Origin: Eledone cirrhosa
Lineage: Eukaryota > Mollusca > Cephalopoda > Octopoda > Eledonidae
Reading direction: 5' to 3'
Assembly: GCA_964016885.1 (NCBI GenBank)
Contig: OZ024743.1
Coordinates: 182,807,218-182,871,217, forward strand
DNA: 64,000 nucleotides
The notes below the pieces were generated by a model. It was not told where the DNA came from. It ran no database searches and worked only from the letters and a program-made list of their open reading frames with translations. The stretch's first letter is position 1. The number at the start of each line of letters is the position of its first letter. The translations under genes were made by a program, and so were the position numbers. Shown in pieces: positions 22,514 to 64,000 of the stretch.

Positions 22514-25500
22514 TTAGGTAGCATACGTATTCTGAAGATTTTTATAGTGTTCATGTTGACTTTCAGATACAGATGGAACTAGATTTGCTAAAGCTTCCAA
22601 AAAATCAGTCTCTTCAACAATTACTTTGGATGTATCTACATCTCGACCAACTTCGAGTTTTTGAATGAGTTTTTTTGTGGCATTCATCCAAGCATCTGAT
22701 GCTAAGGCATAAAAATCAGCCCCAGTCAAATCCATATCACATTTGTCCACAATAGACTTCAGTGAGAAATTACCAAGTATGAACTTTCTTGTGACAGCTT
22801 CAAGTATCTTTAATTGGAAATCTTTGTTTTTACAAACCCCCATGTAAAGAACTTTGTCAAATCTGCCAGGTCGAAGCAGGGCTGGATCCAGTAAATCAAC
22901 CCGGTTTGTTGCACCAATAACAAACACATTATGTGACTTGTGTAATCCATCAAGTTCAGCCAGTAACTGTGAAACAATACGGTCCATTACACCCCCTGTA
23001 TCTCCATTACGACCCCTATTGGGGGCTAATGAATCAAGTTCATCAAAAAAAATTACACACGGCACTGCATCACGAGCTTGTTGGAATACTTTGCGTACAT
23101 TTTCTTCACTTTGTCCAACATATTTGTTCATAAGTTCTGGTCCTTTGACACTGAAGAAATTCAAAGAACATTCTGTTGCAACAGCTTTTGCTATCAATGT
23201 TTTCCCTGTCCCTGGTGGACCATGTAAGAGTATACCAGAACGTCTTAGACCAGCTGCAAGAAGCTCAGGACGCAGAAGAGGCAATTGAATTGTGTCTAAA
23301 ATCTCTTGTTTTACCTCATTTAGCCCACCAATATCTTCCCATTTGACTTTAGGAATTTTTGGTGTTCCAAGTTCATCGGCGTGTGACGATTGTAAGCTGT
23401 CAAGTGCATTTTCAAAATCAGAATGTTGTATGACTACACCTGAAGTACAAAGATCATTATGCATTTCTTGCCACTTCTTGTCTTTAACTCCCAGAAAATC
23501 AGTCACTCGTTTATAGGCTTCTGCTTGTGCCCTTTTCACCAGATCCACCATATCCCCTAACACGTAACCTGCAGTACGTCGGCTGATATAAGTAGAAGAT
23601 ACATCACCAGAGAAATATATATCTTCTGTTAAATTGGTGAACATAATTGCACGGTCAGCTTCCGAGGGAACTTGCATTTTCATATGATGTAGAAATCCTT
23701 CTGGAATGTTAGGTTGCAATTCTTGTGCATTTTCTGTGGTGCCAACAATCAACATCGGGTAATCTAAAGCATAGCGTTTAGCTTGTTGCAAAATGTCAAC
23801 AAAGAATGTACCAATCTTCATATCAATGCTATGCTTTTCTGAACGACCCAAAAATTCTAAATTTTTCAACACTAAAATACATGGGGCATAATCTTTTGCA
23901 CTGCGAACAATATTTTTTATTTTCTCAATCATAGCAAATGGTGACATACTGCTGAGATGTTGACAGCTTACTTTGATGACCTGCAGACATAATGTCCTTG
24001 CTACAGCATCTATTACAGTTGTCTTACCAACACCACTAGGACCAGATATTAATATAGTGGGAGATAGAATTTCTTGAACTTTTGCATCCAATGTATCATT
24101 GAGAAATGGTAAGATCAATTTTAACAAATTTTCCACATAAAATTCCAATCCTGCAGGTCTAGACTGACACCAATAAGGTGGTGAATCATTAAGAAGATAA
24201 GGTACAAAGCTATGAGCAGTATAATTTTCTTTCAAAGTCCTAGTTGTAAACTTTGGATGTACAAGGTGTCTGTCACCATGTTCAAGACTTGGTTTAATAT
24301 TTTCAACCTTAAGATAGAAAATTGAGCTTTTTTCAAAGGAAAGGTCAGTCTGAGAGAAGTTGTTATTTTTTATTTTTATGCAAAAAATATCACCCTTTTC
24401 CATTAGACGGGGATATTCAAAATATTTATCAAGTTCTTTAGAAGGTAAATCCTCACTGCCAGGAGTTTTAATTAGACTGAATATGACCTTTTTAGCAATC
24501 ACTACATTCCATAGTTTTAAATTATCTAAAAACGAATCATTTGTTTGCTTTCCATTGACATTTTGTAGTTTCTTAATAACAATTGCTACACTTGTAGTAG
24601 GTAGATGTTGTGGATGTACTTGTATATTGAACAGCAGAATGGGAGAAATGAAAGCAAAGCGAGATTTATCATACCGTCTTCCAAGACATTTCACCATAGC
24701 CATCTTAGAGCGAACAATTGTGGTCCTTTTTGGAGAGGATTCAGGAACATTGTCAAAGACATCATCTCTTTCTCGGAAAAGCTCAACTTTATTCCCTATA
24801 CAATACACTTCAACAATACTGCTGTCAAACAGTTTGTTGGCCAACATCAATTTTCTAGACATACATATAATATAGTTTGGATCAAATTCTTGATCAGAAT
24901 CAGTTTGTATCATCACATCTCTTAGTCGTTTGTCACCAACAATTTTTGCAGGTACCATTATATTCTTAGCATCTAAACAGTTGTCCTTAGGTTTTTTGCT
25001 CCATGGACAGAAGCTTGAAAAGAATAAGCTGTCTTTAGATAAACAGTCCATACGAGGTTTATGTGGGTTTGAATTATTAGTCTCCTCGTGTACTGTAAAT
25101 ATTTCAGTTTTAGCTGTGAGTAGTCCCTGTCTAAAAGGACAACACTCAGTCACCACAATATGTTGATAATAATTCGGTACAGAAGAACTAACCTTCCCAG
25201 GCGACCACAATGCAAGAAACAAGTCATTTGTCCGCACCAAAACACCATGTTTACATACTTGCAGAAGAAGATGGTGAAAATCTAAGTTTTTTATAGCCTT
25301 ATACGTATCTAAATCTTTAACAGACAAAATAACTTTCTCCAGAGGAAAAGGTATTATTCTCCGGAAAACTATATTTTGAGATGGTTCCCAACCATAATGT
25401 TGTAAAAACTGGTTAGTACAGTATAGATAGACTTTCGTGTTGATTATACTTGATTTCTCATCTACTTCACTACCTTCATCTAACTCCAGATTTGTCGGGA

Positions 25501-25849
25501 AAGGTGAAGGGAGCAAGGTTTCATCAATTGATACAACACAAATTAAATTTGCATCTTCATCAACTTTGGGTTCTATATCTTGATCATCAGTGAGGGTGAA
25601 ATAAAGACCTCCAACTGGTAAAGTACTCTTCCTCACCTCAGGACGTCGGAAAGCAATAAAAAAATATTCACAATCATTTTCTAGAAACAGAATTGATGAA
25701 GCAGTTTTTTTATCGACATTTAAATGAAGTGGGTGTTTCGTTAAGAAAGATTCATCTACGCCCTCAACATTGTTTTGCTGTTGTGCTTTATCCTCCCGAT
25801 TGATAAATTCACCGAGAAACGATGATTGATACATATTTTTTATAATCAT
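22514..25849 (-). CDS. PEX6: Peroxisomal biogenesis factor 6 (AAA+ ATPase)
   Basis: An 1111-residue type II AAA+ ATPase. With PEX1 it forms the hexamer that pulls ubiquitinated PEX5 receptor out of the peroxisomal membrane. Residues 1 to about 570 are the divergent N-domains. D1 has Walker A GPSGVGKT at 603-610 and a degenerate Walker B (ILVLKNLE, about 658-665), typical of an inactive D1 in this family. D2 has GGLNEVKQEI just upstream, Walker A GPPGTGKT at 877-884, Walker B VIFFDELDSL (acidic pair at 936-937) and the second region of homology with LRPGRFD (Arg 993 and 996). The C-terminus follows a GADFYAL-type helical lid. PEX6 is chosen over PEX1, VCP or NVL from the degenerate D1 and the D2 wording. 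Human PEX6 is about 980 aa. The frame has no intron or break. The first Met (25847-25849) is used; another Met is 5 codons on. Confidence 0.93.
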   Translation of the reverse strand: MIIKNMYQSSFLGEFINREDKAQQQNNVEGVDESFLTKHPLHLNVDKKTASSILFLENDCEYFFIAFRRPEVRKSTLPVGGLYFTLTDDQDIEPKVDEDANLICVVSIDETLLPSPFPTNLELDEGSEVDEKSSIINTKVYLYCTNQFLQHYGWEPSQNIVFRRIIPFPLEKVILSVKDLDTYKAIKNLDFHHLLLQVCKHGVLVRTNDLFLALWSPGKVSSSVPNYYQHIVVTECCPFRQGLLTAKTEIFTVHEETNNSNPHKPRMDCLSKDSLFFSSFCPWSKKPKDNCLDAKNIMVPAKIVGDKRLRDVMIQTDSDQEFDPNYIICMSRKLMLANKLFDSSIVEVYCIGNKVELFRERDDVFDNVPESSPKRTTIVRSKMAMVKCLGRRYDKSRFAFISPILLFNIQVHPQHLPTTSVAIVIKKLQNVNGKQTNDSFLDNLKLWNVVIAKKVIFSLIKTPGSEDLPSKELDKYFEYPRLMEKGDIFCIKIKNNNFSQTDLSFEKSSIFYLKVENIKPSLEHGDRHLVHPKFTTRTLKENYTAHSFVPYLLNDSPPYWCQSRPAGLEFYVENLLKLILPFLNDTLDAKVQEILSPTILISGPSGVGKTTVIDAVARTLCLQVIKVSCQHLSSMSPFAMIEKIKNIVRSAKDYAPCILVLKNLEFLGRSEKHSIDMKIGTFFVDILQQAKRYALDYPMLIVGTTENAQELQPNIPEGFLHHMKMQVPSEADRAIMFTNLTEDIYFSGDVSSTYISRRTAGYVLGDMVDLVKRAQAEAYKRVTDFLGVKDKKWQEMHNDLCTSGVVIQHSDFENALDSLQSSHADELGTPKIPKVKWEDIGGLNEVKQEILDTIQLPLLRPELLAAGLRRSGILLHGPPGTGKTLIAKAVATECSLNFFSVKGPELMNKYVGQSEENVRKVFQQARDAVPCVIFFDELDSLAPNRGRNGDTGGVMDRIVSQLLAELDGLHKSHNVFVIGATNRVDLLDPALLRPGRFDKVLYMGVCKNKDFQLKILEAVTRKFILGNFSLKSIVDKCDMDLTGADFYALASDAWMNATKKLIQKLEVGRDVDTSKVIVEETDFLEALANLVPSVSESQHEHYKNLQNTYAT

Positions 25850-26779
25850 ATCCTTGATTAATTAAAATATTAAAATATGTGAAACCAAAGAAACATTCAA
25901 ATCTTGCCTTTTCTCACCTTTAGATCCATTTCTAGTTAAGATACAACATAATAAAAATGAATGTTTTCCATCAGTATATGAATGACGCAAAAGGAGAGTT
26001 ACCTCCTCTTAGTTAGGTGGTTTTGTCGGTAGAGGGCATCATATGTGGCCAATATAATATTTTCGTAATCTTTCAAATTCATATTTTATTTACTCTTTAC
26101 TATTTTTTCGACGTTAGGAAACTTTCATTATATTTCTCTTTATTCTTCCAAAATTATTTACAAAAGCTTGTTTCGTTAACAGGTGAATTCGATGGAAATT
26201 TTAGTCGGATTTTTTTTTGTAGTTGGAATAGGAGCATAGTCCTATTTGAGGGTTCTATTAAAGTGAACGTGAAATTTCCAAACAGGAAAATCGAAAACGG
26301 AAATGTACTTACTTTCTGATTGTATGGAAATAACGTAATGTCTATGTTTTGTGAATACACACCTCTACAATAATACGGATGCATTGACTTTCTGATTTTG
26401 CCACTGAAATGAAAACAACGAAATCTGAATAGTGTATTTTACAATTATGATATAATTATTTCTTACACAAAGACAATATATATATGGTATTTTGTGGATA
26501 CGAAGCTAAATAAAAGCGATGGTAACGGTAGTCAATCATACATAATAAATTTACTTCTATTTTCCACGTACCAATAACAAAAGATTACCTAATTTTGTTC
26601 CATCGTTTCTGTTTACGTTTCTATTTTTTATATGGAAATTTTACTTTCACTTTAATGGAACCTTCTAATAAGTATTTAAAAAAAATATTATTTATCATTT
26701 CAATAGAAAGTATACAAATAAACACAATTTAAATATATTCATATAAAAACAGGAATGAAGAAAAAAAGGATATTATCAT
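25850..26779. other. PEX6 upstream region
   Basis: Holds the presumed minus-strand PEX6 promoter, but no clear TATA box was seen. An open frame at 26017-26319 and its antisense are unrecognised. Otherwise AT-rich. Confidence 0.4.
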
Positions 26780-31905: not shown

Positions 31906-32515
31906 TATTACATGGCCGTGAGGGAGGCGGGGAGAACCTTTGATTTAGATGGAGGATGGAAACTACTATTCAGGTGAGCAGGTCAGGTGCCAGAAATGAC
32001 TTGCACAGGCAGGAGTGGGGATACTCACAAGCCCCCCCCCCGATGTGAGAATGTGTTATGGACTGGATCCTATTGTGAGGGAGGATTTGCCTCTTGAAGC
32101 TTAAGCTGAAAGAAAGGTGTCTGTGGGGAGTGCAAGTTTGTGCGAAATAGGGAGTCCGAATACAGATCCCTCCTTGATGAAGTCATAGCAGAGATAGATA
32201 TAGTTAAGACAGTAATAATAAAAAATAACTTCAAAAATTTATTTTATAATTAAAAATTCATTTTATTTTTTTTTAAAGATTCTGAAAATCCGAAGACCGT
32301 TGGCCGTTGGAAAATATATGAAAAATAAATGCATTTAAAAAAATCTACATTGAAACGAATAAATGCCGGATAACGTAGTCTTATATGCATATAAAAAAGT
32401 GAGGATGGTCACGTCTGGAATACTTTTCATCATAGGCCGGCTCGATCAGCGTTAATATGGAACGAAACATCCTTAAAAAATGAAAGTATTAAAGTTTCGA
32501 AGTCTTTTATCATCT
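31906..32515. other. Intergenic DNA, no recognised gene
   Basis: Contains a C run (about 32033-32041) and possible LINE debris around 32060-32210. Nothing firm. Confidence 0.4.
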
Positions 32516-32517
32516 GA

Positions 32518-32628
32518 CGTCGAGGTTAACTTTGCCTTTCATCCTTACGGGGTCGATAAAATAAAGTACCAGTAATACACTGAGTAATTTGCTGGCCTTG
32601 TGCCTAACTTAGAAACAATTATTTATTA
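32518..32628 (+). mobile_element. SINE-A 3' part, sense, upstream of RPLP0
   Basis: Reads cgaggttaactttgcctttc through aataaagtaccagtaataca to ttagaaacaattattt. It ends about 165 bp before the RPLP0 TATA box. Confidence 0.8.
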
Positions 32629-32869: not shown

Positions 32870-33218
32870 GTGAGAAAACTTTCAAATTTACATTTTTACT
32901 CATTTTTATTTCGTTCAAAATTCAATCGAATGAATCGAATGTTGTTTCATTAGTTTTAGTTTATTACAAAAAAGTCAATAATTTCATTTTTTTTACACAG
33001 ATGAAAGAGGATTACTACACGAGGTCAACCTAAAAATATAAGATATATACCATTTTTTAAATATCTTAAAAGATAGAGTGTATAGTTTAAGATAATTTTG
33101 TAATATATACATACAGAAATTAGAATATTGAACTCTAACTTTAGAAATAAATTAAAATAGCTTCAGTTTTTTAAAAATAAATTAAAATAGCTTCAGTTTT
33201 TTTTTTTTCTCCAATTTT

Positions 33219-33449
33219 CGACATGATTACAAGATCATTGCTGAAATAATCTTGTAAGTGGCAAACGGGAGCTGACTACTGTAGTCTTCGGAATACAGTT
33301 CTGTTGTGCAGTGAAATCCCATTCCACTATGTCGTACATTAAACTTGTCCCCTGTTTTTTACAGGCGAGGGCTAGAACACGGTATATTCCATAACTTCTG
33401 GTAGTCCCTGTGACTATTAACTGGGAGTTAGACCATACTCGGTACATTA
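33219..33449 (+). ncRNA. SNORA73: U17/E1/snR30 H/ACA snoRNA, copy 1
   Basis: Sits in the RPLP0 5'UTR intron. A 5' hairpin has arms ACAAGAT/ATCTTGT (33229-33255). A middle hairpin has a 9-position stem with one mismatch, closed by a C(UUCG)G loop (33278-33299). Box H is AGAACA at 33374-33379. The 3' hairpin starts with m1-like ATATTCC (33384-33390), has a long upper stem AACTTCTGG/CTGGGAGTT, then m2-like AGACCAT (33430-33436), then ACA at 33444-33446 with 3 nt to the end. U17/snR30 is unusual among H/ACA RNAs: it is needed for early 18S pre-rRNA cleavage, not pseudouridylation, and its conserved motifs are AUAUUCCUA (m1) and AAACCAU (m2). Order, motifs, spacing and length (about 230 nt) agree. 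From memory, vertebrate U17 shares AAGTGGC and CCTGTG at matching places. Confidence 0.88.
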
Positions 33450-33529
33450 CTTTTATTAGTTCCTGATAAATTTTCATCTATATCAATTAAATATTTTAAG
33501 GGGGATCGGTGTAAAAACCAAACTATCTA

Positions 33530-33840
33530 GTTCAATATTAGTTTCAACCCTTATCTATGGTCATGAACCTTGGGTAAGGACCGAATACAAGCGACCAAAA
33601 TGGGGTTCTTTGGAGTAATGTTACTTAATTGTGTAGCTCAGTGTCGTATAGTTGAAATGTCTCGAAAGAATCAGCAAGATGGTTGGATAGCATGTGAGTT
33701 CGGCTGATCTCACTTGGGGTCCTGTTGATGGTTGCTTCTGATAGGACCCAGAGAATAAAGTCTTTGTTCCTGATAGTACATCTAGTTTGGTGTGGGCCAG
33801 ACAGTAGATTTCTCATTTACTCAAGCTGGGGTCTAATAAT
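33530..33840 (+). mobile_element. LINE-2 C-terminal fragment in RPLP0 intron
   Basis: The plus-strand equivalent of 2880-3255, with aatggggttctttggagtaa and gctgatctcacttggggtcc, decayed. Confidence 0.6.
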
Positions 33841-34363
33841 TGTCCCCCTCACCTATTTGCAAATTTCATTCCTGCGACCCTTTTAAACATACATTAGAAT
33901 TCCCTATATAAAATAAATAGGATGGGTTGGGATCTCAATAATTAAACAAAACGACTAATTCTGCTTTTAAAAAATAAATCAACCTCCACTATTGTTTGGG
34001 ACCCGGGAGTAGATCAGTATTTCTCTAGACACGGAGAGATTTAGCAACTCAAGACCTCTGTCGGTACCTAATTCCTATACAACCAAATTCGTCTTTTTGA
34101 TGATACTTTCCAATCAATCCATCCATTCCAGAGCAATATAGCAATTACCTCCCAAATTGGTAATTGAAAAAAAGATTTCAGTAAATTCTGTCGAATAGGA
34201 GGCCTCGTATTTGAAATATTTTGTCGACACGTGGTCTCAATATATTACTGGTTAAAAATAAAATACGAAAGTTTTTGAATCCTGATGTCCGGGCTTCTGG
34301 TTTCCCAGACAAAAACCGTCTCAGTAAATATGGATTAAAAGAAAAAAAAAGCTGGTTATATTT

Positions 34364-34545
34364 TATAATTGTTTCCACTTTTGGCACAAGGCCAGCAATA
34401 ACCCAGTGCATTACTGGTACTTTATTTTATCGACCCCGTAAGGATGAAAGGTAAAGTTAACCTCGGCGGGATTTGAAATCAGACCGCAAAGGGACGTAAC
34501 TATGCTGGAAAGCATGGCGTCTGATCCTCTACCGATATTTTAAAA
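34364..34545 (-). mobile_element. SINE-A in RPLP0 5'UTR intron
   Basis: Plus strand reads attgtttccacttttggcac through gggatttgaaatcagaccgc to gaaagcatggcgtctgatcc. It ends about 45 bp before the acceptor at 34588. Confidence 0.85.
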
Positions 34546-34627
34546 ATGAAGTGATTTTCTTTCAATTATTAAATATTTTCTTTCTCAGGTTTATCTTTAA
34601 ATTGCTTGCAATCCCTGATCCACCACG

Positions 34628-37600
34628 ATGGTCAAGGAAGATAAATCAACATGGAAAGCCAATTATTTCATCAAAATCATTGTAAGTATTTATTTCTATC
34701 CATTAATTAATTTTTAACAATTTTTTTCGACATGATTACAAGATCATTGCTGAAATAATCTTGTAAGTGGCAAACGGGAGCTGACTACTGTAGTCTTCGG
34801 AATACAGTTCTGTTGTGCAGTGAAATCCCATTCCACTATGTCGTACATTAATCTTGTCCCCTGTTTTTTACAGGCGAGGGCTAGAACACGGTATATTCCA
34901 TAACTTCTGGTAGTCCCTGTGACTATTAACTGGGAGTTAGACCATACTCGGTACAATTCACTTTTAGCTTGCTTTTATAAATATTAACATTTCATGTTGA
35001 AGTATACTTAGCTGAAAATCAATGCCAGCATTAGCTGGGGATTTCCCGCTGAGGTGGATTACTGCCCTGGGGGGGTGGGGGATAGACACCTTTCCGATGA
35101 ACCTCCGGACTTTAGTCATTTTACATAGTAATTGATTGTTTCTACTTTAGGCACAAGGCCAGCAATAACTCAGTGCATTACTGGTACTTTATTTTATCGA
35201 CCCCGTAAGAATGAAAGGCAAAGTCAACCTCGGCGGGATTTGAACTCAGATAGATTTGAACCGATACTGCCAATCCACCGCCCTCTAGTAATTAATTGTT
35301 TCTACTTTTGGCACAAGGCCATCAATTTCTCAGTGCATTACTGGTACTTTATTTTATCGACCCCGTAAGGATGAAAGGCAAAGTTAACCTCGGTGGGATT
35401 TGAACTCAGACCGCAAAGGGACGTAACTATGCTGGAAAGCATGGCGTCCGACCCCCTACCGATACTGCCAAGCCACCATCTAGTAATTAATGCATCTTTT
35501 TCATATTTCCAGCAACTGCTAAATGAATATCCCAAATGTTTCATCGTCAATGCCGACAATGTTGGTTCAAGGCAGATGCAGACCATCCGTATGTCTCTTA
35601 GGAGCCATGCAGGTAAGAAATATTTTCCTGATATTTAATGGTGTGATGATGAAAAGCCTGTAATTGAGTGTCCAGCTGTTGGCACTAGTAACCGAAAGGT
35701 TGAACCCACTAGTGTTTGTTGGTCACCATGAGAAAGTTTAGCCATGTGGCTGTCTGAACACCATTTAAAAATAATTTTTGGTAAATTTATAGAATACCAC
35801 TCGGTTTCACTGCGGAGCAATTTTTTCCTCTTGGGAGATTGAGCGGGGTAGCCCCCCCCCCCCCCTTTAAAAAAAAAAAAATTTTTTTTAATTATCAACT
35901 GATCTCCAAACATGGACTTTGTAAGGTTTACACCCCCATCCTGTGGTGGGGTCAGATTAGTTGACCACACTGAAACCAAGAGCGGTGTCCTATAATAATT
36001 TCACCTGATTAAAAATATTTTGTTCCCTTTCAGTTGTCCTCATGGGTAAGAACACAATGATGAGGAAGGCCATTAGGGGTCATCTTGAACAAAATGCAGC
36101 CCTTGAAAGGTAGGTTATACATTTTTTAGATAGAAATTGATCCAGTATAGATTAAAGATAGCTTTTGGTTATTCTTAACCAGAGTGTAATCTAACTGGTA
36201 AAGTAATCCGGTCACTCTTTTGCCTTGTAGGTCTTTACTATTTGACACTACAACTTCCTTACCGGTGATACAATTGAGGTTTTCATTAAATAATTGGCTG
36301 ATCAAGAAAAGCATTCATAAAGTTTTGATATTAAATATCTTTAGATGCCACAGTTAGTGTCTGCTAAATATGTATATTGTAATTTGTTGCATGGGTTACA
36401 GTTTATGGACTGTCAATATTTAATTGCAGCTGCTCTGATGGTGTTAGGGACCATGTATAGCTTTATAGTATGGTTTATACCACTGACCTTCCTAATGCCA
36501 TTTAAGCCACCAGTCCACACTATATTTACAACTTATATGTATTTTGTAATGGCTTCAATTTTAGGTTAGGTATCCTTGTTTTAATCGTGGGAAGGAAGTT
36601 TAGATTGTGTGTGAAACATGAAAGCTTAATGGGTGAAGTGGGAGATAAAAGGGTTGTGCTGGGATGGTGGCTTTGATATGGCCTCTCACTTATAGGGTTA
36701 CTGCTTTTAAGGTGTGAAAGAGGTAATAATAAAGGGTGGTAACTGGAGGATAACTATTTGCTAAATAATTTACCTACGTCCTTCCATATTTTAGGTTGCT
36801 ACCACACATTAAGAACAATGTTGGTTTTGTGTTCACTAAGAATGACTTGGCTGATATCCGAGACAGGTTGATGAATAACAAGGTTAGTGGCAACATTTTC
36901 ATTTAAGATTAGATTACAGGTCAGTTGTGGGACCTGCTTTAGGGTGGGTTTGGAATAGACATCATAACTAGGATTTGGGGGCTTCTGTATTTGAAACGTA
37001 ATTGCCTTAGTGAAGTAAAATGTATTGTTCGATATATTGGTAGAGAAGGAAATTTTCGTTTTAATCCCTTTGAAGCTAAAAATAGAAGTTTGTATATCTG
37101 ATATCTAAAAGACAATTTTTCTGTCAGAACTGTTATAAAATTATATTCCAAGTGCCAGCTTAATAAGAAAATTCTTTTAAACCCTTCATCTAATTATTTT
37201 CAAAATGACTGAAAAATGTTTTATACTATTTTCAACTATTTATTTGATTTTCTTATATTTGTAGGTGAAAGCTCCTGCTAGAGCTGGTGCTATTGCTCCT
37301 TGTGATGTATCGATACCTGCTCAAAATACAGCTCTTGGTCCTGAGAAAACTTCTTTCTTCCAGGCTTTGTCTATCCCAACTAAAATTTCCAGGGGTACTA
37401 TTGAAATCTTGAATGATGTTCGTTTGATAAAGGAAGGTGATAAAGTTGGAGCTTCTGAGGCTACATTGCTAAATATGTTGAATATCTCACCATTTTCATA
37501 TGGTTTAGTCATAGAGCAAGGTGTGTGTCAAGTTTTTATTTAGCCCTTAAGAATGATGAGAAACAAATGACTTTCGCTCTACTGAAAACAATGTGGAGAC

Positions 37601-38331
37601 TTTGTTTACTGACTTAAGTAAAGGGTTTATCTTTGGTTAATGAATTAACTGTTTTATTTTTAGGAAATAAGATTTATTTGAGGTTAATTAAAAACAAATT
37701 TTTTTCCTTTATGTAGTGTATGACTCTGGAACCGTCTTTGCACCTGCTGTCTTGGACATCACAGATGATGATATCCGAAAGAAGTTCATGGCTGTAAGTA
37801 ATAGTGTTTTTTATTTTTATTCATTACACGATAACAATCGATCTTGATATCTATTACTGTTTAGTTATCTTAATATTTTACAAGATTATATTCAACTATC
37901 TTTACAGGGTGTGAATAATGTTGCTAGTTTATCTCTGGCTATTGGTTACCCCACTTTAGCTTCTGTACCACATCTCCTCATCAATGGTTTCAAGAACCTG
38001 GTTGCTATATCTTTGGAAACAGAGATTGAATTTGAAGAAGCCAAAACAGTAAGTTTCCTTTTTATAACGCCTTCCAGTTTATTTCAGTCATGTATTAATT
38101 TCTTCTATTAAATCTGTTGGTTTAATCAAAATGTAATGAATGGGTTTGTATTTTCAGATCAAAGAATTGCTGTCTGATCCTGAAAAGATGGCAGCAGCTC
38201 TTGCAGCATCTGCTGCTACCACTGCTGCTCCAGCAGCTGCAGCAGCTGCTCCTGCTGAGGAAAAGAAGGAAGAAAAGGTTGAATCTGAAGAGGAATCTGA
38301 TGACGACATGGGTCTTGGCTTGTTTGATTAA
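34628..38331 (+). CDS. RPLP0: 60S acidic ribosomal protein P0, eight coding exons
   Basis: Coding exons are 34628-34681, 35513-35612, 36034-36109, 36795-36882, 37265-37520, 37717-37793, 37908-38048 and 38158-38331. They total 966 nt, giving 321 residues (human 317). Junctions are GT-AG and the frame stays open. P0 anchors the ribosomal P-stalk on 28S rRNA and holds P1/P2, which recruit elongation factors. Visible: start [26 protein letters not shown] and [99 protein letters not shown]; then an alanine-rich hinge and the acidic tail [13 protein letters not shown] that binds factors. AATAAA follows at 38339. The transcript is TOP-type. Introns host the RNA candidates listed around it. Exon edges were placed by eye. 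Confidence 0.95.
34728..34958 (+). ncRNA. SNORA73: U17/E1/snR30 H/ACA snoRNA, copy 2
   Basis: Lies in the first coding intron of RPLP0, 47 nt after the donor. Same RNA as copy 1, shifted by 1509 bp. The matching block is 34724-34955 against 33215-33446, 232 bp with a single difference (a/t at 33343). Box H AGAACA is at 34883-34888, m1 at 34893-34899, m2 at 34939-34945 and ACA at 34953-34955. Similarity stops right after ACA on the 3' side and just before the first hairpin on the 5' side, so the conserved block equals the expected RNA. Such identity beside diverged introns points to recent duplication or gene conversion. Confidence 0.88.
35133..35285 (-). mobile_element. SINE-A in RPLP0 intron, first of two
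   Basis: Plus strand has attgtttctactttaggcac and ggcgggatttgaactcagat, then gaaccgatactgccaatcca. Part of the tRNA head is lost. Confidence 0.85.
35294..35482 (-). mobile_element. SINE-A in RPLP0 intron, second of two
   Basis: A nearly complete antisense copy directly after the first, reaching gtccgaccccctaccgatac and ending about 30 bp before the acceptor of the next exon. Confidence 0.87.
35637..35765 (+). ncRNA. Candidate long C/D box RNA in RPLP0 intron 2
   Basis: Terminal stem AATGGTGT (35637-35644) pairs perfectly with ACACCATT (35758-35765). Just inside are C box ATGATGA (35646-35652) and D box CTGA (35754-35757). The interior has a 7-bp stem CACTAGT/ACTAGTG enclosing AACC-GAAA-GGTT. 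At 129 nt it is long for a guide RNA, and no D' box or rRNA match was recognised. It could be a chance structure. Confidence 0.45.
35885..35975. repeat. Relative of the 26981 hairpin repeat in RPLP0 intron 2
   Basis: Contains aattatcaactgatctcc and ggggtcagattagttgacca, partial arms of the hairpin family, next to long C, A and T runs. Confidence 0.5.
36138..36275 (+). ncRNA. Candidate H/ACA snoRNA in RPLP0 intron 3
   Basis: Hairpin 1: lower stem CCAGT-a-TAGATT (36142-36153) against AATCTA-ACTGG (36188-36198), 11 bp with one bulge; upper stem TGGTTA-ttct-TAACCA (36166-36181). Box H AAAGTA (36200-36205) fits ANANNA. Hairpin 2: lower stem CCGGT/ACCGG (36208-36212 with 36261-36265), upper stem TTGTAG/CTACAA (36225-36230 with 36248-36253). 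ACA is at 36270-36272, 16 nt after the upper stem, with 3 nt left. Unpaired strands beside the upper stems would be the guide pockets; no target is assigned. The size is normal for the class. Confidence 0.65.
36400..36522 (+). ncRNA. Weaker H/ACA-like hairpin in RPLP0 intron 3
   Basis: TGGACTG (36406-36412) pairs with CAGTCCA (36511-36517). ATGGTGTTAGG (36438-36448) pairs with CCTAATGCCAT (36491-36501) with two wobbles. ACA at 36517-36519 is 15 nt after the upper stem. No convincing box H or 5' hairpin was found, and the 5' internal loop is large. Confidence 0.3.
37546..37618 (+). ncRNA. SNORD59: C/D box snoRNA in RPLP0 intron 5, U59-like
   Basis: A 73-nt unit. Terminal stem CTTAAG (37546-37551) pairs with CTTAAG (37613-37618). 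C box is ATGATGA (37553-37559), D' box CTGA (37582-37585) and D box CTGA (37609-37612). The sequence before D' is aaatgactttcgctcta. As I recall, human U59 has nearly the same guide (ATGACTTTCGTTCTT), directing 2'-O-methylation of 18S A1031 in AAGAACGAAAGTC. The octopus guide differs at two positions, so the target base depends on the local 18S sequence. The host intron is 196 bp, usual for such RNAs. Confidence 0.72.
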
Positions 38332-41105: not shown

Positions 41106-41979
41106 TGATCGACTGCTTCCTCTTTGAATTGGTCTCTGCACTGTTGATTTCTCCATAATATCAAAAAATAGTGGCCTACTTGGGGTGGGTGTCTGGCAAT
41201 GCCATCCCAAACGAGGGTGTAGTGTTTGCCCTTCCCCCTCTTTCTTTCGTCCTTCCAGTGGATTAACCAGACCCTACAGCAACCATGCTTAGCACCACTT
41301 CCAAACAGGTATGTCAATCATGCCCTTAAAAATCATTAAAAGGTAAATCAATTTGTCTAATTAATTCTATCATTTTATACAATTTAACCGGGCGCCGTGC
41401 TAAATGAGCGACAGCTGCCACCGGTTGTTAAAAATTACGTCTCCGAAATCTCTTGATTGTGATTCCGCCCAGACGCTCGCAAATCGGCAACTGGGTGCCA
41501 CTGACGACAAAGACCCTTTTAATGAATTTAACGCTTTGCAGATTATATATATCATTTTTGAAAAACATATTATATGATCTTGCAATTTAATTTTCTCATA
41601 AACATTAATTATATTTCTTATAAAACCAAATATAACTGCATTTTCTAGTTTTTACAAAATTTATTTAATAGTTTCCTTTCAACATTTTACTGTTTCTAAT
41701 TTGAGATAAAAAAGAAATTATTAAAAAACTATTTATTGCTTTGTATTTCTAGATATTTTATTTTTAGTAGTTCCATGCAAGGGAGATAATTGCTGAGGTT
41801 TCGTGTTCACTGTATTGTTTTGATTATCGAGAAGAGAAATTAGTCATTCTGTTGGTGAGGGTGTCACATGAAGAACTGTCATGTTTTATTTGATTATCAT
41901 AATAATTTATATTTTATTTGGTCTATTAATATGACTTGTACACGATAGCAACACAATAATATGCAGTTAACAACTGTTT

Positions 41980-46848: not shown

Positions 46849-48124
46849 CGGGGTGGGGCATAAAAACTGTTATAAAATAAAATGCAAATAGTTCTTGAAA
46901 AAAACATTTATTTCAAGATCTGACTTCAACAAATAGTAAGTAATATACTATTAAACAACTGCCCCAAAATTTATTCGAAATGCTTTCCTCTAGCTCTCAC
47001 TACTGCTCGAAGTCTTCTAGGAAAGTCTTCGATGGCTGCATGAACAGTTTCCATGGGTATTTTCTCCCATACTTTATTCAGTTTTGATTTTAGAGTTTCA
47101 ATATTTTGGCTAGTAGAGCAGGCTTCACTCTCAAGAATTGACCATAAAGAAAAATCGAGGGGGTTGAGATCTGGTGATGTGGGAGGCCACTCTTCCTTAC
47201 TGATCCATGCAGGACAATGGTCTCTACACCTCTGTTGTGTTACGGGAGCAGTGTGGCTCATCGCTCCATCTTGTTGGAGAGTCCAAATGTCATCGCCATA
47301 AACAGATGTGCACCATGAGATCAGTGCTCCTTCCAAAATATCCTTTATGTAAAGTTCTTTGTTAATTTTAACTCCTTGAGGCACAAAAATCAGAGGAGAC
47401 TTTCCTCTTTCAGAAATGGCTGCCCAAACTATCACTGATGCTGGTTTCTGAACACTTTTCCTACACTTGAAGGAATTGATTTGAGACTTTTTGCAAGTAC
47501 TCGATCATTTTGATGATTGTGAATAACTTCTCATCTGTAAAGATGATGTTTTGCAGCGTGCCATCCTTGATACGGTTCAATAACAGTTTACTTATGGAGA
47601 GCCTCTTTTCAATTGTGGCTGCAGAAAGAAGCTGCCTCTTTTGGAACTTATAGGGTGAGATCCCCAGATCATCTTGACATATCCTTCGCATAGTTCTTGG
47701 CGATGTTTCTGCTTCTTCTGCCATTTTTCTCATGGACCTTGGATTACGTCTTATTTTTTCCCTCACACTTTTAATGCGTTTTGGTGTTCTTGAGGTGCGA
47801 GGGCGTCCGGATAGTGGTCTGTCTTTGGTCGAGGAAGTTTCCTTAAATCGATCGATTGTCCTTTTGATCAACATTCTATTGATCTTAAGAGCTTTCCCCA
47901 GTTTAAATATCTCAGGTGGAGTCAGGCCTGTTTCATGCTTCTCTATTATGAACTTTCTTTTCAATTCTATGGACATTGCAAATTGTTAATGGAGTAATGT
48001 TCTGAAAAATAGTTAATATGGCTATAGTGCATGGATTTGATACAAATATATTAGTGATATTAACAACATAATTTATTTTTAAAATTGATTTAAAACTTTG
48101 TAACAGTAATTATGCCCCACCCTG
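46849..48124 (-). mobile_element. mariner transposon relic, DD37D, with TIRs and TA duplications
   Basis: 1276 bp. The left end CGGGGTGGGGCATAAAAACT and the right end (reverse complement) CAGGGTGGGGCATAATTACT agree at 24 of the first 28 positions. TA flanks both ends (46847-46848, 48125-48126). The minus-strand transposase has a paired helix-turn-helix N-terminus with GRPRTSRTPKRI between (47461-47976), first catalytic Asp in IIFTDEK, second in WTLQQDG and third in SPDLNPLDFSLW, with 37 residues between the last two. Length and structure fit mariner (maT-like spacing). The coding region is broken by at least two frameshifts between about 47420 and 47520, so it is not autonomous. Confidence 0.9.
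46971..47976 (-). pseudogene. mariner transposase, frameshifted
   Basis: Two frames: 47461-47976 (DNA-binding half, through the first catalytic Asp) and 46971-47435 (second and third catalytic Asp). Between them a short third-frame stretch is needed, so there were at least two small indels. All three catalytic residues are still present. Confidence 0.85.
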
Positions 48125-49511: not shown

Positions 49512-51660
49512 ATCATCATCCTCATCATCACCGTTTTACATCCGTTCTTCCATGCTAGCATGGGTTAGACGGGTTGTCCTATTGTGGGCAGTGTTCGGTC
49601 GGCTGACCTTGTCTTGCTCATATGGGAACTGATTCTGGCTTGATTTCTACAGCTGGATGCCCTTCCTAGCACCAACCTCATTTACAGTGAGTGCTGGGTG
49701 ATTTTTTTCCGTGGCGCCTATACGTCCACTTTACAGTGTGGGCTGGGTGTTTTTTTGCCGTGGCACTTCCACGACCACCTTGCAGTGGGGGGTGTGGGGG
49801 CATATTGTCTATATGCTTCAGCTTGTACCCATGGGAGGTCGGGTACTCTGTATTAGTGCGTGACGCCAGAGGTCACGGTCGTGTGTCATCGCCTTTGAGA
49901 GGTGTAATTGGGTAAGGTCGGCTTTTATCCCCTCATCCCAGGTCTTCTTGGGTCTCCCCACTCCGCGGTTACCATCGACTTCTAGTGCTCTGCACCTTTT
50001 TATGCAGCTGTCATCCTTCATACGCATCACATGTCCATACCAACGCAACCACCTCTCCTGCACACAGCATTTGATTCCTCTTATGTTCAATCTCTCTCTC
50101 AATTCATTTATGCTTTGCCGTTCGCGTATTACACATCCATCAGAGCATGCAGGCTTTGTTTCTTTCTAATCTGTGTAAGTCTTCCACAGACAGCGTCCAG
50201 CTCTCACCACCATGTAACATTGCTGTTCGTATACATGCATCATACAATCTGCCTTTCATTTTGAGGGAAAAGCCTTTTGCAGCTAGCAGTGGCAGTAGCT
50301 CCCTGAACTTCTTCCATCCCGTTCTTATGCTAGTTATTCTACTTTCCGAATACCCACCTCCGCTGCTAATTCGGTCACCTAGGTAGCAGAAGCTGTCTAC
50401 TGTTTCTATAGAGCCCTCCTAGTGTTTGGTGGTACTTGTTTCCTGTGGCTGTTTGCTGCTTGCTGTCCCAGCACAAATGCTACATGTGAAGCCTACATTC
50501 TTAGTTAAGCTTCCTGAGATTCTGCTACATCTCTTGTGTACCTATTGTTTGCATTTGGGGCAGAGAATGGAGTTCCTACCTACACCTTTCCTACATACTA
50601 AGCAAGACCATTTCCCCGAGGGGATCTGGGTTCTGTTTTCTTGTCTACTTACAAGGACCTTAGTCTTTGTCAGGTTGACTTTGAGACCCTTTCTTTCTAG
50701 TCCCTGCTTCCAAGTTTGGAATTTCTTCTCTAGTTCTACCATAGATTCAGCTATAAGTGCGAGGTCATCTACGTACAGGAGTTCCCATGGGCATCCGGTC
50801 TTAAACTCCTCCGTTATTGCCTGTAGGACTATGATGAACAGGAGAGGGCTAAGAACAGAGCCCTGGTGGACACCGACCTGTACGCTAAATTCCTCGCTAT
50901 ACTCATTGCTAATCCTAACTTTGCTGACTGCTCCCCTATACATGGCTTGTACAGCTTTCACAAGCCATTCATCTACTAGTTTTCTAAGAGCCCACCAGAT
51001 TATAGCACGGGGAACTCTGTCAAAGGCTTTCTCGAGATCGACGAATGCCAGGTAGAGTGGCTTACTTTTCCTGTAACCACTCACAAGGAAGAGGGCATCA
51101 ATGGTGCCTCTTCCTGGCACAAACCCAAATTGCATCTCATCTGGTCCCTAATCAACTGTGCTATAACTCTTTCTGTTACTTTCATGACCTGGTCCATCAG
51201 CTTTATACCTCTATAGTTTCCTCTATGTAGTGCATCACCTTTGTAGCAGTTGACAATGATGCTACTGCACCAATCCTTTGGTATGACACCTTCTAGTATT
51301 ACCTGGTTAACAATACGTGTGGTTATGGTGTGACCTACCGACCCAGATGCCTTCAGCATCTCGGCAGCTATACCCGATGGACCGGTTGCCTTCCTCGTCT
51401 TCATATCTTTGATTGCCTTACTTACTACGCTGTTGCTGACTTGTACTGCTGGCCCCTCTATAGGGTCTACTTGGGGTAGGGTCTCTTCTTCCCATGCATT
51501 CTCCTCATTTAGTAATCTATCAGCACTTGTGAGGGCAAGCTCACCTTTATCATTCCGGATACACTTCTCTCCAATGACATCACAATTCTCTCTGACACAC
51601 TGCCTTGCAATCTTGAACACCTCCAGTTTCTGGTCCTCACGTTGCGAAACATGCATTTAT
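49512..51660 (-). mobile_element. LINE (non-LTR retrotransposon), 5'-truncated, with RT domain
   Basis: Minus strand, about 2.15 kb. RT fingers at 51081-51656: KATGPSGIAAEMLK, NYRGIKLMDQVMKV. A frameshift leads to the palm at 50542-51135: FGFVPGRGTIDALF, AFVDLEKAFDRVPR, GVHQGSVLSPLLF and the catalytic YVDD, then KGLKVNLTKTKV. A CxxC-type end (CLVCRKGVGRNSILCPKC) follows, then RWYGHVMRM and GRPKKTW at 49818-50102. The 3' UTR contains ggttggtgctaggaagggca in reverse complement and a (GATGAT)n tail at 49512-49540. Endonuclease is missing, as expected from incomplete reverse transcription. Confidence 0.88.
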
Positions 51661-63800: not shown

Positions 63801-64000
63801 AAACTCTCTCACACAAACACATACACACACAAGTGTATACACACTCTCTCACACAAACTCATACACACACAAGTGTATATAAACTCTCTCACACAAACAC
63901 ATACACACACAAGTGTATATAAACTCTCTCACACAAACACATACACACACAAGTGTATATAAACTCTCTCACACAAACACATACACACACAAGTGTATAT
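51804..64000. repeat. 40-bp satellite array, more than 12 kb, continues past the window
   Basis: Unit of 40 bp: acaagtgtatataaactctc then tcacacaaacacatacacac, about 300 copies. Two main variants differ in the core: type A gtatataaactc and type B gtatacacactc. A sub-variant of the following segment reads aaactcatac. Length variants are 38 bp (one tc lost) and 42 bp (one extra ac). The plus strand has only two G per unit. No other sequence interrupts the array. Reading frames on both strands are artefacts: 40 is not a multiple of 3, and only type A has a TAA, in one frame. Confidence 0.97.

Follow-up and report, generated by a model that had tools for sequence, protein, structure and literature searches.

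The window analysed here is a stretch of 64,000 nucleotides (nt) from the octopod Eledone cirrhosa (GenBank assembly GCA_964016885.1, contig OZ024743.1, positions 182,807,218 to 182,871,217 of the forward strand), and it contains two near-identical copies of a sequence that we identify, with a probability of roughly 0.9, as genes, functional now or until recently, for the H/ACA small nucleolar RNA (snoRNA) U17/snR30. They lie in introns 1 and 2 of the cephalopod gene RPLP0, which encodes ribosomal protein P0 (uL10). Coordinates below are positions in the window, and the two copies were placed as follows.

33218..33449, + strand: U17/snR30 copy 1, in RPLP0 intron 1 (cmscan, RF00045, 68.7 bits, model positions 1-219 of 219)
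34727..34958, + strand: U17/snR30 copy 2, in RPLP0 intron 2 (cmscan, RF00045, 69.8 bits, model positions 1-219 of 219)

Both copies are sense relative to RPLP0. A repeat search of the window recovered them as a 232-nt direct repeat (33215-33446 and 34724-34955) with an offset of 1509, in which the sole mismatch is an A at 33343 against a T at 34852, leaving 231 of 232 positions identical. A reading made earlier from the letters of this DNA (the sequence-only reading) had described such a block, occurring twice 1509 bp apart with one difference, and the search reproduced it. When the copies and their flanks were used as blastn queries at E-values up to 1, no third copy was found in the 64-kb window, and the remaining alignments were at most 35 nt long.

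The family match was obtained with the Rfam model SNORA73 (RF00045), for which the E-values were 2.3e-14 (copy 1) and 1.1e-14 (copy 2) in a 64-kb search, and 5e-15 and 2.4e-15, respectively, in a 14-kb search. The sequence-only reading had proposed this Infermal comparison; it yielded a full-length match at an E-value of about 1e-14 and stopped short of the gathering score of 74 bits, which is a curation line rather than a biological property. An Rfam scan at the curated cut-offs reported neither copy, and only a U11 RNA passed. We accept the U17 identity because the low E-value and full-length match are joined by an independent anatomy, and we count the missed cut-off against it.

That anatomy consists of the following elements, all on the + strand.

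33336..33341 (copy 2, 34845-34850), + strand: H box ACATTA, of the form ANANNA, unpaired and following the closed 5' domain
33384..33390 (copy 2, 34893-34899), + strand: m1 motif ATATTCC, six bases of which pair with yeast rm1 GGAAUA
33430..33436 (copy 2, 34939-34945), + strand: m2 motif AGACCAT, one base off AAACCAU
33444..33446 (copy 2, 34953-34955), + strand: ACA box, 3 nt before the modelled 3' end
start at 33287 (copy 2, 34796), + strand: UUCG, a hairpin loop

The earlier claim of a box H, an ACA 3 nt from the end, and correctly placed m1-like and m2-like motifs therefore holds for both copies. A pattern combining m1, m2 with its second base free, and a spaced ACA, designed after the copies were known, matched twice in the two introns; it had no match in 2000 single-base shuffles of both introns or on their opposite strand, and none on either strand of the remainder of the window. 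In the predicted fold of either copy, two hairpins sit inside a closed 5' domain, which is followed by the H box, an internal hairpin, a 3' hairpin and the ACA box. This is the vertebrate-type plan described for human U17, with its closed two-hairpin 5' domain, H box, and internal and 3' hairpins (PMC7601244), and the U17 identity is supported because the predicted fold of both copies follows it. For copy 2, all 300 shuffles of the 5' domain were less stable than the domain itself (z -3.15); for the whole RNA this was true of 298 of 300 (z -2.5). The UUCG-capped hairpin of the sequence-only reading stood in part: it can form, with 7 pairs around a G.A mismatch, and is the best fold of its isolated 20 nt, but it is absent from the minimum-energy fold of copy 2, compared with which a whole-RNA fold that includes it is 1.6 kcal/mol worse.

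The m1 and m2 motifs would be the points of contact with 18S ribosomal RNA (rRNA). In yeast 18S rRNA, rm1 lies at 801-806 and rm2 at 836-841, and the primers printed in the same source yield GGAAUA for rm1 and UGGUUU for rm2 (PMC9176245). Measured against these yeast rather than octopus sequences, all six pairs are possible between m1 and rm1, and all six, including one G-U, between m2 AGACCAU and rm2; among 200000 random pockets, 6 paired with both. In snR30/U17, the top of the pocket lies 14-16 nt from the ACA (PMC7601244); here, the start of m2 is 14 nt from the ACA, in line with that distance, and fold prediction with m1 and m2 held open ends the upper stem at the start of m2. In a table of 14 organisms, m1 is AUAUUCCU plus one base, and m2 is AAACCAU in all 14 (PMC7601244), whereas both copies in the window have m1 AUAUUCCAU and m2 AGACCAU. 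Judged on these letters, the six-pair core of m1 and m2 survives, and the motifs are nonetheless non-standard.

Several observations weigh against the identification as U17. Both copies fall 4-5 bits under the SNORA73 cut-off (68.7 and 69.8 versus 74), and the basal stem of the 3' hairpin has two non-standard pairs with respect to that model. The 3' hairpin of copy 2 is also ordinary in comparison with shuffled sequence (z -0.61), 72 of 300 shuffles being equally stable. The m2 sequence AGACCAU departs from the AAACCAU of 14 of 14 organisms in the table of PMC7601244, and the U that follows AUAUUCC of m1 in all 14 is missing here. Finally, when the naked RNA is folded by free energy, four of the seven m1 bases and five of the seven m2 bases are paired, so that the pocket is partly shut; the penalty for keeping both motifs open is 5.6 kcal/mol for each copy. 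In the Rfam alignment, the m1/m2 pocket is mostly open. The fold of a naked RNA does not decide the structure inside a ribonucleoprotein (RNP), and for this reason the partly shut pocket leaves our confidence in the U17 identity unchanged.

Variation in m1 and m2 has been described as always matched in rm1 and rm2 (PMC7601244). The departures seen here might reflect natural covariation between an essential snoRNA and rRNA, in which the change of cephalopod U17 m2 from AAACCAU to AGACCAU, and that of the base after m1 AUAUUCC, would be met by a matching change in expansion segment 6 (ES6) of octopus 18S rRNA and would have become fixed in both RPLP0 copies; we consider this quite unlikely. The m2 change, being fixed in both copies, offers a ready test of how strict U17-18S pairing is.

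The host gene was modelled from its joined exons and their translation.

34628..38331, + strand: RPLP0 (uL10) coding region, 8 coding exons, 321 amino acids plus the final stop
34628-34681, 35513-35612, 36034-36109 and 36795-36882, + strand: RPLP0 coding exons 1-4
37265-37520, 37717-37793, 37908-38048 and 38158-38331, + strand: RPLP0 coding exons 5-8
32870..34588, + strand: RPLP0 intron 1, in the 5' untranslated region (UTR), with borders CAG/GTGAGA and TTTCTCAG/G, as placed by splice consensus
34682..35512, + strand: RPLP0 intron 2, the first coding intron, GTAAGT...TTCCAG, whose flanking exons keep the RPLP0 frame

The product carries the Pfam domains PF00466, PF17777 and PF00428, and its best sequence match in the PDB is the P0 protein of solved ribosomes (E 9.8e-148). 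Among the 120 protein matches listed, the highest identities are 94% and then 92% (Argonauta hians P0), with several further matches at 83-87%; identity to Octopus bimaculoides P0 is 85% over 86% of the query. By this gene model and these identities, the host of both U17 copies, in its consecutive introns 1 and 2, is the RPLP0 gene of a cephalopod, probably an octopod. The joined exons, the Pfam domains and the PDB match support the earlier placement of the copies in the intron of the 5'UTR and the first intron of the coding region of this gene. The same two introns also contain a repeat of about 170 nt (34366-34537, 35133-35304 and 35293-35464), which we take to be similar to a cephalopod tRNA-derived short interspersed nuclear element; inverted partial copies of it lie upstream of RPLP0, with arms at 32502-32628.

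We infer that the pair would most likely have arisen by a recent cis-duplication, in which scarcely more than the snoRNA was copied into the adjacent intron. Recent copying of little beyond the snoRNA is the simplest account because 231 of 232 positions are identical and the flanks are largely unlike. In chicken, duplication within a gene, termed "cis-duplication", is behind almost all snoRNA paralogs of the genome (PMC2653536). Flank homology was assessed in 12 tests (six lengths on each of two sides) in A+T-rich DNA, which makes flank matches weak evidence. Downstream, blastn extends the alignment to 33455/34966, with 98.35% identity over 243 columns, giving weak similarity for about 10 nt beyond the block; the shuffle tests gave p 0.026-0.244, below 0.05 at three of six lengths. 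Upstream, no similarity was found at any of the six lengths (shuffle p 0.448-0.802). We do not accept flank similarity as an argument in either direction. The sequence-only reading had taken the better conservation of the block than of the introns to suggest selection or gene conversion; this does not follow, because the surroundings of the two copies need never have shared an ancestor if the snoRNA alone was copied, and the flank tests point neither way.

The two copies could instead be real U17 sequences, one a working gene and the second a recent and still intact pseudogene or retrocopy in the neighbouring intron. A single difference in 232 positions between largely unlike flanks fits a very recent copy, and the ends of the two differ, with copy 2 ending in the Rfam consensus ACAATT and copy 1 in ACATTA, so that copy 1 would be the derived one. 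Yet all boxes and motifs are kept in both copies and both are in sense orientation, and a search around them turned up neither a target-site duplication nor an A-tail that was convincing. The longest flanking direct repeats, in a search spanning 34 nt around each copy's start and 49 nt around its end, were 7 nt for copy 1 and 6 nt for copy 2 (two repeats, one of which overlaps the end of the RNA); as repeats of only 6-7 nt in A+T-rich sequence, they did not lead us to accept retroposition. On balance, a single working gene seems rather unlikely.

Also rather unlikely, in our estimation, is an old U17 pair that has been held identical by gene conversion or strong selection. The weak downstream similarity past the block would be compatible with an older duplication in which conversion took part, but the upstream flank shows no such similarity at any length, and selection alone could hardly hold 231 of 232 sites, because conservation between lineages does not extend to the 5' part of snR30/U17 (PMC7601244). 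That the block is not U17 at all and is a chance sequence or unrelated repeat, such as a fragment of a mobile element, is scarcely credible: the scores under the Rfam cut-off and the other dispersed repeats in the same introns would allow it, but against it stand the full-length model match at an E-value of about 1e-14, boxes and motifs that keep their register, and the absence of a third copy from the 64 kb.

If the two sequences are U17 genes, as we favour, their expression, processing and function can be inferred from related systems. RNAs of the U17/snR30 family are stable and nucleolar, associate with the four H/ACA proteins and are required for the cleavage of 18S rRNA. RPLP0 pre-mRNA would be spliced, and exonuclease digestion of each released intron would leave an H/ACA RNP containing an RNA of about 230 nt; with two such introns, each RPLP0 transcript could give rise to up to two U17 RNAs. 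In the RNP, m1 and m2 would pair with rm1 and rm2, which lie in ES6 of the pre-18S rRNA; by stopping early folding of ES6, the RNP would allow the cleavages that free 18S rRNA to proceed. We assign this role to the window RNAs on the basis of their homology with yeast snR30, which, in a structure, is paired to rm1 and rm2 and prevents premature ES6 formation (PMC12095548). If this is true, a single transcript would tie together the expression of the P0 protein and that of an RNA for small-subunit processing.

Two candidate C/D box snoRNAs were also found in RPLP0, each scoring below the gathering score of its family.

35638..35763, + strand: candidate C/D box snoRNA, SNORD22-like, RPLP0 intron 3 (cmscan, RF00099)
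37547..37618, + strand: candidate C/D box snoRNA, SNORD59-like, RPLP0 intron 6 (cmscan, RF00273)

The first scores 30.8 bits against a gathering score of 50 (E 0.015 in 64 kb) and has a C box, a D box and a terminal stem of 5-6 bp; the second scores 27.3 bits against 45 (E 0.23 in 64 kb), with C and D boxes and a 6-bp terminal stem. RPLP0 would host four snoRNAs if both are real.

Elsewhere in the window, the full-length U11 minor-spliceosome small nuclear RNA noted above lies at 41388-41521 on the - strand and scores 96.4 bits, with the cut-off at 39. It sits downstream of RPLP0 by about 3 kb, on the opposite strand, and carries an Sm-site-like AATTTTT. A single open frame of 1115 amino acids with two AAA ATPase stretches (22514-25861, - strand) presumably resembles the peroxin PEX6. 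Frames resembling, by eye, a Tc1/mariner-type transposase (46971-47985, - strand) and a reverse transcriptase of the long interspersed nuclear element type (50542-51656, - strand) precede a 40-bp tandem repeat of about 306 copies with 93% matches, which runs from 51806 to the window end at 64000 and contains many + strand frames of 131-203 amino acids.

Among known systems, yeast snR30 is an RNA of 606 nt transcribed from a unit of its own, whereas the window U17 is 232 nt long and intronic. Human U17a and U17b are also known as SNORA73A and SNORA73B, and their host U17HG as SNHG3. Apart from the host, the m2 change and the shared transcript, our findings amount to routine gene annotation. No report of RPLP0 as a U17 host was found in the literature searched, which is weak evidence of absence as subscription papers were largely outside the search. 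RPLP0 appears as a quantitative PCR control in PMC7682050 and among proteins with extraribosomal functions in PMC554972. In Drosophila, snoRNAs are hosted in introns of 27 ribosomal protein genes, and the passages on this neither name nor exclude RpLP0 (PMC2246290). For the giant squid genome, 41 H/ACA loci are given, and the main text contains neither "SNORA73" nor "U17" (PMC6962438). The window may therefore present a known RNA in a hitherto unreported host gene, while the presence of several U17 copies within one gene is already known.

Such multiplicity is not unusual, because there are precedents in both human U17HG and Xenopus RPS8 (PMC7601244), and such precedents, including that of a ribosomal protein gene as host, favour our identification. 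As in the window, one human host gene carries two copies, U17a and U17b, each in an intron of its own; they differ in their motifs, with m1 AUAUUCCUA and m2 AAACCAU where the window has m1 AUAUUCCAU and m2 AGACCAU (PMC7601244). Fugu U17 is likewise linked to a ribosomal protein gene, S7, according to a title cited in PMC7601244, but in another host gene and another phylum. The sequence-only reading had named S7 as the host in frog, which was mistaken: S7 belongs with the cited Fugu title, and the Xenopus host is RPS8. Another parallel in arrangement is U17XS8 of Xenopus laevis, in which U17 is also repeated across introns of one ribosomal protein gene, although that gene is RPS8 and six introns are occupied, compared with RPLP0 and two here (PMC7601244). 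To U17 genes that occupy varied ribosome-related hosts and multiply within them, the Eledone pair would add a case from the molluscs and one more host gene.

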